62,443 nucleotides of DNA from Candidatus Altimarinota bacterium. GTDB taxonomy: Bacteria; Patescibacteriota; Gracilibacteria; Absconditabacterales; Absconditicoccaceae. Below, piece by piece: positions 19,390-22,207 of the stretch. The position numbers and the translations under genes are program-made. Every line of letters starts with the position of its first letter. Within the stretch, counting starts at the first letter, position 1. The notes under the pieces were generated by a model. It was not told the origin of the DNA and made no database searches. It saw nothing but the letters and a program-made list of their open reading frames with translations. Where the stretch lies: NCBI GenBank assembly GCA_021734475.1, contig JAIPIU010000008.1, positions 1 to 62,443 on the forward strand, written 5' to 3'.

Positions 19390-19772
19390 AATAATTCTTT
19401 ATTATAAAAGTTAGATAGATAATAGAAATCCTGACTAGAAAAAAAAGGGAAACTAACAATTTTTAAACTATTTTACTTATATCAAATAACAGAAAAAACA
19501 ATTTTAGTACTGTAAAGATTAAAATATTAGCAAATATGTCGCAAAACGCGTCGTTTTTTACGACTTGATTTTTTTATCCAATGTTTTTGTATCAAGACAA
19601 AAAGATTGGTCCTGGGGTTTGGGGCAGGAAAAGCCCCATAAAGAACATAAATAAATTAAAAGTTTAATTTTTTAATTGAATTCCAAAAGTATATCATTAT
19701 ATACTAATCAGCTATTTTTTTTGTTGATTTTTTAGGGCACGTAGATTTTTGCTAGAAAGGTTAACATGATAT
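19390..19772. other. Gene-free stretch upstream of obg with one dispersed repeat
   Basis: I see no gene. It holds a two-hairpin repeat (19578-19646) and, at 19735-19744, GGGCACGTAG, which equals the first ten bases of the tRNA that starts at 19773. The left part should contain the obg promoter, but I cannot point to clear boxes. Confidence 0.6.
19578..19646 (+). repeat. Two-hairpin dispersed repeat (copy 1)
   Basis: Stem CCAATGTTTTT / AAAAAGATTGG, then GGTCCTGGGGTTTGGGGC and a second hairpin GGGGC..GCCCC, then ATAAAGAAC. Copies at 35236-35298 and 61949-62020 have different stem bases that still pair. Confidence 0.8.
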
Positions 19773-19845
19773 GGGCACGTAGCTTAGTTGGTAGAGCAGG
19801 TCCCTCTTAAGGACAAGGTCCAGGGTTCGAATCCCTGCGCGCCCA
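19773..19845 (+). tRNA. tRNA-Lys (anticodon CTT)
   Basis: The cloverleaf is clear: acceptor GGGCACG / CGCGCCC with one A-C mismatch, D arm GCTT..GAGC, anticodon stem GGTCC/GGACA (outer pair mismatched), loop CTCTTAA with anticodon CTT, T arm CAGGG-TTCGAAT-CCCTG and discriminator A. CCA is not encoded, so the CCA-adding enzyme at 20501 is needed. Confidence 0.9.
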
Positions 19846-19932
19846 TAATTATAAATATAGGCATACTAGCCTATTTTTTATTTTAATATAAAAAGACTTG
19901 ATTTTTATTTAAAATATAATATAAAATTCTTC

Positions 19933-20193
19933 GGATGTGGAACAAAGAAATATCGATTCCCTAAAAAACTCAAATTGAGAAGTATGGGAGCAGCCCAAAC
20001 TCAATCTTTTGATTGAGGGTCATAGGACCCCGACATGGAACGGACAATATACCAAAAAATGGTGATCCTACCTAGGGGTGGATCCTGAGTAGCTGCTATG
20101 CAGTGAAATAACGTGGATACATTAGAAACAATCACGTAAGGCTAAACTACATTCTACGAGCTTCAAGGTATCGCCCTGAAGCTCTATTTTTTT
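19933..20193 (+). ncRNA. Structured non-coding RNA with terminator, family not identified
   Basis: No reading frame fits, but pairing is dense. A closing stem joins GGATGTGG (19933-19940) and CTACATTC (20147-20154); AGCAGC near 20000 can pair with GCTGCT near 20095; local hairpins include CTCAATC/GATTGAG, GGGTC/GACCC, GATCC/GGATC and ACGTG/CACGT. A terminator, GAGCTTCA/TGAAGCTC (20158-20184) plus a T-run, ends it. The RNase P motif GAGGAAAGTC, the SRP loop and tmRNA ends are not seen. A 6S-like RNA remains possible. Confidence 0.6.
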
Positions 20194-20500
20194 TAAAAAA
20201 AATAGCAATATTTATATTTTCATATAGCTACAAAAATCACTTAGACTAAGCAAGCTAATGGCCGAACAAAATGGCGGATGTGAGGCCTAGAGTTTTTTTA
20301 ACTTGTCCTAAGCGAAGTCTTAGGGTACTTTTTGAGGCAATGTCAAAAAGTATTTTGTCGTCTGGGGCCGAAACCCCAGTAAAAGATAATTCATTTCAAA
20401 AAACGCAATACTAACGACATTTTGTTATTCTACAAAAAACTTGTTATTTAAATAAATAAATATAAAAACAAAAAACTACATTTAACGTATTTATACACCA
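20194..20500. other. Gene-free stretch with small hairpins
   Basis: Holds CCTAAG/CTTAGG (about 20312-20329) and a TGGGGCCGAAACCCCAG hairpin near 20366 related to the second hairpin of the dispersed repeats. No gene is visible. The cca promoter should lie at the right end. Confidence 0.5.
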
Positions 20501-22207
20501 ATGCTAAACTTCCAAAATATATCTATACTAGATAAACATATCAAATATCTTCAAAAAATTTTAGATACAAAAAATTTTTTTCTAGTATGATGATCAGTTA
20601 GAGATATATTACTATGAATAAACGACAATCCAACAGATATAGATTTTACAATGAAATGAGAGCCAGCAAATATATACAAAAAAATAGATAAATCTAATTT
20701 ATCTCATTTCATTACAGAAAAATTCTGAACAATAAGTTTAATAAAAAACGATATCAAATACGAGCTAACTCCTCTACGTACAGAATCATGATACAAAGAT
20801 ACTCGTCACCCTGACGAAATCACACGAAGTGATGATATTGTTTTAGATTCACACAGAAGAGATTTTACAATAAATTGTATCTATTATTTTTCTATAGATC
20901 ATAAAATAAATCATAAAATAGAACAAGAAAAAAAATGTTCAACAGCTATGACATGACTAGAATATATAGCTGAACAAAACTTATTTATAATTAGAAACCA
21001 CGAACATATATCTAAATTATTCAAAGACTGAGAATTCCAAACAGATTGTTTCGATTATTTATTTTCATTAGTTCAAAATAAATTATCTGGTAAATCCAAA
21101 AACTTACAAATAACATCAAATACAGTTAGAGTTATAATAGATCCTTTTAACTGAATGGTAGATTTGGAAAATAGGACATTACAAACATGTGGTAAAGCTG
21201 ACAAAAGATTTCAAGAAGATGCACTTAGACTTATCAGAGCAATTAGATTTGTAAATATTTTGAATAACAAAATCAAAAAACAAGAATCAAAAGATAAAGT
21301 TAAATTATTTGATTTCGAAAAACAAACACGATTAAGTATCAAAAGAAATCACAAACTCATCAAAAAAATAGCTAAAGAAAGAATCAAAGACGAAATAGTC
21401 AAAGTTTTTCAACAATGAAATCCATTCGGATTTATAGCTCTTTTGGATGAGAGTGAATTATTGAAAATTATTTTCCCCGCACTACACAAAACCAAAAACA
21501 TAGCTCAACCAATTAGATATCATCCATTTGATGTGTATGCTCACACAATGTTAACTCTAAATGAATTACAAAAAATAAATTCTGATTATTTAGTTAGATT
21601 AGGAATGCTATATCACGATGTAGGCAAACCAAAACAGTTTTGACAATACAAAGATTGACTAACAAAAGATGAAATAAAAGAAATAATGTGATGACCAAAT
21701 AATCATAGAAGAAATTGACCAGAAATAGCAAAAAAAGATTTTAAAAATCTATGATTTTCTAGCAAAGAAATAGATGATATCTTACGATATATAGCATATC
21801 ATCATAAACCAGAAGAACTAATAAGTGTAGAATGAGACAAAAGAGAAAAAAAAATGAGAAAACTTTTGAGTGAATTTGGTTTAGAAAAAATAAATAACAT
21901 CTTGGATATAGCTATGGCTGACAGACTATGACAGTACAATCCTTTGCAAAATAGTAGTGATATTACAGATATAAGTGATCTTAAAATTTTATTAAAAAAA
22001 TTGGAAAAAAAAGAATGACAATTTACTTTAAAAAACCTAGCAATAGGTTGAAATGACATAATGAAATACTTTAAAATAGAAGCATGACCTATTGTTTGAG
22101 AACTTATAAAAAAATCTCTCAATCGGGTTCTAGATGATATCAAAAATAGAAACAACAAAACAAGTATATTTGAATTTATCAAAAAATATTTAAAGAACAA
22201 AAAATAA
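20501..22207 (+). CDS. cca: CCA-adding tRNA nucleotidyltransferase with HD domain
   Basis: The 568-residue protein has the class II nucleotidyltransferase head: FLVGGSVRDILLG, then the metal-binding DIDFT, with DSHRRDFTINCIYY (RRDFTIN block) and ERIKDEI downstream. Arg-rich EDALRLIRAIRF is the PolyA-polymerase RNA-binding motif. From about residue 340 an HD domain follows (HPFDVYAHT, LYHDVGKP, HHKPEE). It would add CCA to tRNA 3' ends; the nearby tRNA-Lys lacks an encoded CCA. Some CCA enzymes with an HD domain also repair ends by phosphohydrolase activity. The start of queA is 3 bases downstream, so the two are one operon. Confidence 0.92.

Follow-up and report, generated by a model that had tools for sequence, protein, structure and literature searches.

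rRNA mimicry in cis controls bacterial ribosomal-protein genes, as set out in the available portions of two papers (PMC7247131, PMC10931766), and in the second of these a 23S fragment is described as outcompeting the S10 leader for uL4 in vitro. Another arrangement is found in apicomplexan mitochondria, where pieces of rRNA are separate small RNA genes and are reported, in the excerpt available, to be incorporated into mitoribosomes (PMC10948144). A further point of comparison is the raiA motif or ModT RNA (RF03072), a compact multi-helix stand-alone RNA of about 210-260 nt, the mechanism of which is unsettled according to the accessible parts of the reports (PMC11706538, PMC11751092). Among the matches listed from the open-licence literature, and within the portions of text that these offer, there is no precedent for a free-standing paralogue of part of an rRNA. 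To our knowledge, no known bacterial RNA gene is a conserved paralogue of this kind that stands beside an intact rRNA gene.

The window analysed here is a stretch of 62,443 nucleotides from a Candidatus Altimarinota bacterium of the Absconditicoccaceae, the genome of which (G000) has a GC content of 26% and reads TGA as glycine (code 25). A stand-alone RNA gene with its terminator occupies positions 19932..20193 of the plus strand, between the genes for tRNA-Lys(CTT) (19772..19846) and cca (20501..22207, in code 25), both on the same strand. The GC content of the RNA region is 41%, compared with about 30% in the flanks. The sequence from 19933 to 20193 has a predicted fold of -75.0 kcal/mol, against -56.7 +/- 4.2 kcal/mol for 200 dinucleotide shuffles, none of which equalled it (z -4.31, a value that includes the terminator hairpin). 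An 8-bp closing stem pairs GGATGTGG (19933..19940) with CTACATTC (20147..20154), and is followed by an intrinsic terminator (20158..20194) made up of a hairpin (20158-20184), the bases TA and a T run (20187-20194). A sequence-only reading of the window had described a structured RNA with its own terminator and an 8-bp closing stem between tRNA-Lys and cca; the fold, its z and the gene neighbours confirm that description.

Directly 5' of the RNA is a promoter-like TTGATT-18-TAAAAT (19898..19927, plus strand), where the stretch TAATATAAAAT is identical in the copy of a second species. Sites of this type are not above chance in such AT-rich DNA (three found, 2.1 +/- 1.3 expected). An alternative -10 element, TATAAA, lies at 19920-19925 (plus strand), 7 bases 5' of GG. 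A simple terminator scan did not report the hairpin at 20158-20184. Conservation in the second species is stronger evidence that this is a gene. Several short inverted repeats can be seen by eye at 20240-20400, within the spacer that precedes cca; this spacer is not conserved in the second species. Near the tRNA-Lys/cca locus of several genera there are also tRNA-Lys-like fragments or pseudogenes (L002:1340-1440, plus strand; L113; L115; L117), and the fragment in L002 carries an inserted hairpin.

Does any known RNA family account for this gene? No Rfam family reached its cut-off over the locus, where matches at E<=10 were chance-like; RF00010 and RF00023 have no match there, and the full-length LSU rRNA model (RF02541) gave no report at the RNA. 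RNase P RNA is found elsewhere in the genome, at G000:C3:280915-281255 (E 2.3e-30; 95.9 bits, just missing the cut-off of 100 bits), as is tmRNA, at G000:C8:10879-11340 (above the Rfam cut-off). The model for the bacterial small SRP RNA (RF00169), which detected its target in 11 of 14 control genomes, had no match at the locus at E<=10 and none in the whole G000 genome at E<=1e-3. The earlier view that the RNA is unassigned by Rfam, and is not RNase P, SRP or tmRNA, is thus upheld, with no high-scoring match at the locus. A 6S-type RNA had also been proposed. 6S RNA is a stand-alone RNA of similar size, but the window RNA is predicted to form a multi-branched fold and not the 6S rod, and RF00013, which was detected in 8 of 14 control genomes, has no match in the whole G000 genome at E<=10; this proposal is not supported. 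The raiA motif, considered for its likeness in size and style, was dropped because RF03072 gave no match at the locus; the ancestry of the window RNA in 23S rRNA is a further difference.

The RNA is shared with one relative. BLAST of 59 related genomes found a single true homologue, in the MAG UBA6263 (G001), with 82% identity over the full length (E 1.2e-75); all other matches were short (E >= 0.01; 30 loci scored) and were taken as chance. As in the window, the UBA6263 copy has tRNA-Lys upstream and cca downstream, and an obg-like gene further upstream (recognised by eye in UBA6263, and by Pfam in the window). The homologue that the sequence-only reading had proposed to seek in related genomes therefore exists, at the same locus. 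The RNA bodies are identical at 197 of 225 aligned bases (88%) and the terminators at 36 of 37. The flanks agree at about 50% of positions (190 of 358 before the tRNA, 148 of 304 beyond the RNA), which is near background for a forced alignment. The UBA6263 copy likewise folds well (z -4.44). None of the 69 consensus pairs is broken between the two species, six being maintained by changes on both sides, and 13 of 500 shuffles reach as much; with two sequences only, from which the structure itself was derived, this is support and not proof. The closing stem carries one compensatory change, from U-A to C-G. A coding function is disfavoured because the two copies differ by indels of 1, 1, 3, 4 and 12 nt. 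It is very probable that the window RNA is a functional RNA gene.

How widely is the RNA found? A pattern scan of genome contigs returned UBA6263 only. There was no match to the RNA in phages or plasmids, and viral contigs were searched for an exact piece of 20 bases without a match. By eye, the cca flanks of eight other family genomes contain no such RNA, and a covariance model built from the window and UBA6263 copies only (R1) found nothing above 5.7 bits at 28 cca loci (one of which, L111, is without its upstream side). In a further genome of the same genus (G002), a contig end cuts the tRNA-Lys/cca locus. A second covariance model (R2), built from 25 segments of 23S rRNA and no stand-alone RNA, found no stand-alone copy in 47 of the 49 family genomes under strict filters, some of these genomes being incomplete; for this reason, the RNA does not look essential to the family.

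The two covariance models also point to the origin of the RNA. Most of the segments used for R2 were chosen through R1 matches, so the models are not wholly independent in sequence choice, and their E-values are rough, coming from a shortened calibration. Over 288 genomes of the class, R1 found matches in 41 genomes besides its two sources, nearly full length and of 30-57 bits, all of them in or beside 23S genes (20 placed in 23S by Rfam, 21 placed in or beside it by BLAST). Partial R1 matches of 13-21 bits outside 23S, in G178, G009 and G045 (a second match), were treated as chance. In the opposite direction, R2 finds the window RNA with 55.8 bits (E 8.7e-18) and the UBA6263 copy with 58.1 bits (E 1.2e-18), in each case as the second match of the genome, the genome's own 23S domain I scoring 226 bits in G000 and 217 bits in G001. 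The register is correct in both directions. On E. coli rrlH, R2 matches nt 207-441; R1 has no match on E. coli 23S, and on the 23S of G000 it was silent under strict filters and gave 28.7 bits in a separate search. R2 gave 29 matches above 150 bits in the 49 family genomes, one per genome, which were taken as 23S. Weak R2 matches outside 23S were dropped: one of 20.8 bits within a protein gene (L179), two of 18.7 and 8 bits among ribosomal-protein genes (L181), and those of 8-14 bits in G030 (L186), G251 (L187), G028 (a second match) and G239.

Judged by these comparisons, the window RNA is almost certainly a free-standing, diverged paralogue of the subdomain of 23S domain I that corresponds to E. 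coli nt 207-441, and as far as sequence can decide the matter its 23S ancestry is settled. The earlier idea of a new RNA class survives in altered form: the RNA has a clear ancestry, as a paralogue of a domain I subdomain. It is 52% identical to the 23S of its own genome over 179 aligned columns. Identity to the ten 23S sequences compared ranges from 44 to 56%, and because its own 23S is no closer than the others, the RNA is old or fast-evolving and not a fresh duplicate.

The genome retains a complete 23S gene with its own domain I (G000:C1:106119-109045, 2927 nt, 2501 bits). Thus, the window RNA is neither a complete LSU rRNA nor the sole source of domain I. In UBA6263, domain I lies in 23S context on a contig of 3085 bases and is 90.4% identical to the G000 23S over 512 nt. 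The possibility that the G000 23S is a contaminant was rejected; it is taken as belonging to this lineage because code 25 is in use in a contig stretch that lies left of the rRNA genes, and because the UBA6263 23S is 90% identical over those 512 nt. The rRNA genes of G000 (L183, G000:C1:104000-112500, minus strand) have the unusual order 23S - 5S - 16S. The plus strand of the same locus, on the side of the rRNA genes away from that stretch, has a reading frame of at least 930 codons next to the 23S; it runs from about 5100 as far as the locus extends and, although the genome uses code 25, contains no internal TGA. Its product resembles a Bacteroidota secreted repeat protein, and the frame may be an acquired gene or a contig misjoin.

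Aligned to the 23S subdomain, the window RNA shows the same helices in the same order (RF02541; 207-441). The 8-bp closing stem stands at the base of the subdomain. It is followed by the 23S-like AACAAAGAAAUAUCGAUUCCC (19941..19961; AAAAGAAAUCAA..GAGAUUCCC in 23S), which is matched by R1 and R2, and by a replaced hairpin tip (19962..19985), where the 23S hairpin AGUAGUGGCGAGCGAA (E. coli ~242-256) has been lost. The 23S-like GGGAGCAGCCCAA (19986..19998) provides the 3' arm of the UUCCC stem and the 5' arm of the AGCC/GGCU helix. The hairpin CUCAAUC/GAUUGAG (20000..20017), at the position of a 23S hairpin, has two compensatory pairs between the species. Next, the 23S-like long-range helix UAGGA/UCCUG (20023..20087) encloses a shortened arm, most of E. 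coli ~294-346 having been lost. The hairpin GCUGC/GCAGU (20092..20104), again at the position of a 23S hairpin, has one compensatory pair, and the last hairpin, ACGUG/CACGU, is accompanied by the conserved 23S stretch AAGGCUAAA (20111..20146, part of the R2 match). All of these elements are on the plus strand. Compared with ten 23S segments, the helices kept are UUCCC/GGGA, AGCC/GGCU, the next hairpin, UAGGA/UCCUG and the last two hairpins. Of the 69 columns that are invariant in the ten 23S segments, the window RNA keeps 33, differs at five and is without 31; it therefore keeps 33 of the 38 non-deleted columns, the UBA6263 copy keeping 35 of 38, in an alignment fitted to the R2 structure, which favours likeness of fold. 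Outside the deleted parts, the RNA thus has a predicted rRNA-like fold and keeps most of the invariant positions. It differs from 23S domain I in being a separate gene with a closing stem and terminator, and in being without the tip and the arm.

A third stand-alone copy occurs in another class. Among the 379 phylum genomes searched, 17 had an R1 match at E<=1e-6 under strict filters, G000 included; five of the 17 are outside the class, four of them in 23S and one, in G423, not. This domain I RNA lies between alaS and dus (L225:1375-1644, minus strand) and scores 38.8 bits with R1 and 46.1 bits with R2. Its fold has a z of -3.2, and it keeps 28 of 32 non-deleted invariant columns. The 242-256 tip and the 294-346 arm are absent from all three stand-alone copies. 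A promoter-like TTGACA-16-TACTAT agrees with the consensus at 10 of 12 positions (one site found, 0.3 expected). The strand that carries the G423 copy yielded no T-run terminator. The copy had no match in plasmids or phages, and the best Rfam match, to SAM-II (E 0.62), was elsewhere in the locus. The signature CGATTCCC-N22..45-GGGANNAGSCYAAAC, which was devised on the three stand-alone copies themselves, matches 8 of the 228 loci examined, all of them stand-alone, and is absent from the 23S loci among them; in viral contigs, no signature of the stand-alone type was found. A restriction to these phyla had been suggested as possible; the stand-alone copies seen are all in Patescibacteria, the only phylum in which whole genomes were scanned with the models. 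The case rests on two close copies and one distant one.

Smaller free RNAs carry other pieces of domain I. R2, together with a further model, R3, found smaller intergenic RNAs in five further family genomes that belong to other genera: G016 (L178:1475-1700, L219:1496-1612 and L221:1370-1560, all on the minus strand), G189 (L180:1525-1710, minus), G024 (L177:1420-1640, minus), G027 (L220:1375-1570, minus) and G033 (L185:1400-1575, plus). The seven RNAs carry the 23S hairpin AGUAGUGGCGAGCGAA, or a version with one change, which is the hairpin lost by the window RNA. Some also have the 23S stretch near E. coli nt 56-76, and the G024 RNA has a further motif in permuted order. Terminator-like ends can be seen by eye in five of the seven, and Rfam found nothing at E<=0.1 in the four loci searched. 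The G016 and G189 RNAs share identical blocks of 21 and 20 bases at the motifs, with less conserved sequence between them. Their likeness to the structured RNA of the window is weakened because their folds hardly surpass shuffles, if at all (z -1.4, -0.7 and -2.0). The small RNAs suggest more than one origin of free RNAs from domain I. It is conceivable, although we consider it a long way from likely, that in Patescibacteria domain I has repeatedly spawned independently transcribed RNAs, of the 207-441 type and the AGUAGUGGCGAGCGAA type, which together would be a novel class of rRNA mimics, acting in trans to control ribosome assembly or the supply of ribosomal proteins in cells whose genomes are reduced.

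What might such an RNA do? No tested known family fits: it is not rRNA, since an intact one coexists, nor by its position a leader, nor 6S, nor raiA. Because the helices and rRNA-invariant positions are conserved outside the ribosome while two parts are lost, the RNA may have been kept for something that binds the subdomain. The best overall explanation, which we give an even chance of being right, is an independent RNA gene derived from domain I that acts in trans as an rRNA mimic. The RNA would be transcribed as an independent gene and would stay out of ribosomes; its partner in trans would be a ribosomal protein or an assembly factor with specificity for the subdomain, and the RNA would buffer or sense the free protein. 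The narrower statement, that the RNA is a trans-acting mimic bound by a protein recognising the 207-441 subdomain, is put forward tentatively, as a possibility that falls short of probable. A trans sponge or sensor is the best guess because of the precedents of rRNA mimicry in cis and of the 23S fragment competing for uL4. A sponge for uL4 or uL24, which that competition brought into consideration, is not favoured, because the deleted arm (~294-346) probably contained those protein sites of domain I that have been studied most.

Could the RNA instead act in cis, as an rRNA-mimicking leader or attenuator for the gene that follows it (cca, or dus in G423), in the manner of ribosomal-protein leaders? 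An aptamer-like RNA with a terminator upstream of a gene on the same strand would fit this arrangement, and both downstream genes belong to families that act on tRNA. The likeness to leaders extends to the presentation, presumably to a protein, of an rRNA surface outside the ribosome, according to the available portions of the leader papers (PMC7247131, PMC10931766). However, the window RNA is not part of a ribosomal-protein 5' UTR, and no gene for such a protein is downstream; its neighbours are tRNA-Lys and cca, and in G423 they are alaS and dus. The terminator is 307 nt from cca, across an unconserved interval (the 148 of 304 noted above), and alternative pairing with the 5' arm of the terminator, as expected of an antiterminator, reaches at most 6 bp with two G-C pairs in either species. 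The G423 copy, moreover, has no detected T-run terminator on its strand. Leaders also resemble a short site, whereas the window RNA has its own terminator and is homologous to a whole rRNA subdomain. A cis-acting role is therefore unlikely.

Slightly less likely still is a ribosomal role, in which a trans-encoded piece would stand in for domain I, or be added to it, in some ribosomes, giving a split or specialised 50S. The subdomain helices and most of the non-deleted 23S-invariant positions are kept, and separately encoded rRNA pieces are reported in the mitoribosomes of T. gondii (PMC10948144). Unlike those apicomplexan pieces, as far as that excerpt describes them, the window RNA coexists with an intact 23S. 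The complete 23S of G000 and the domain I in 23S context in UBA6263 stand against a ribosomal role, as does the absence from the stand-alone copies of two conserved parts of the subdomain.

Two further readings are each very unlikely. The first is that the RNA is a non-functional relic of an old partial duplication of 23S, now decaying. It is indeed a partial paralogue with deleted parts, only about half identical to its own 23S, and is found in 2 of the 49 family genomes. Decay is hard to reconcile with 88% identity between species where the flanks reach about 50%, with 69 of 69 pairs kept (six by compensatory change), with a terminator that is identical at 36 of 37 bases, or with boundaries that fall at a helix. 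Furthermore, the G423 copy has kept the same core and lost the same two parts. The second reading is a ribosome-protecting decoy, whose domain I surface would attract a nuclease, modifying enzyme or drug directed at rRNA, or a mobile endonuclease. We know of no such agent directed at this subdomain. A decoy would explain the maintenance of an rRNA surface outside the ribosome, and insertions that carry homing endonucleases often enter CPR rRNA genes (PMC11270868), but an RNA would not titrate an endonuclease that cuts DNA. Finally, that the RNA is of the 6S type or of a class unrelated to rRNA, its 23S match being due to convergence or chance, had the earlier proposal and the lack of an Rfam match in its favour, but it is extremely improbable and is already contradicted by the reciprocal searches, in which R1 recovers the kind of sequence from which R2 was built and R2 that behind R1, both in the same register, with R2 E-values near 1e-18 per genome, and there is no 6S match in the genome.

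For annotation, the window RNA carries a warning: a diverged rRNA domain can lie behind the absence of an Rfam hit, as RF02541 did not report it. The RNA is a reduced 23S subdomain kept by evolution, and as such it should serve as bait for whichever protein recognises it. Plain protein mimicry, if that is its mechanism, would make it a variant, acting in trans, of a principle already known. If the RNA is functional, rRNA would be a parent of new RNA genes, beyond its roles as a machine part and as a model for short mRNA mimics. The finding hints that pieces of the ribosome may take on new lives as independent RNAs.
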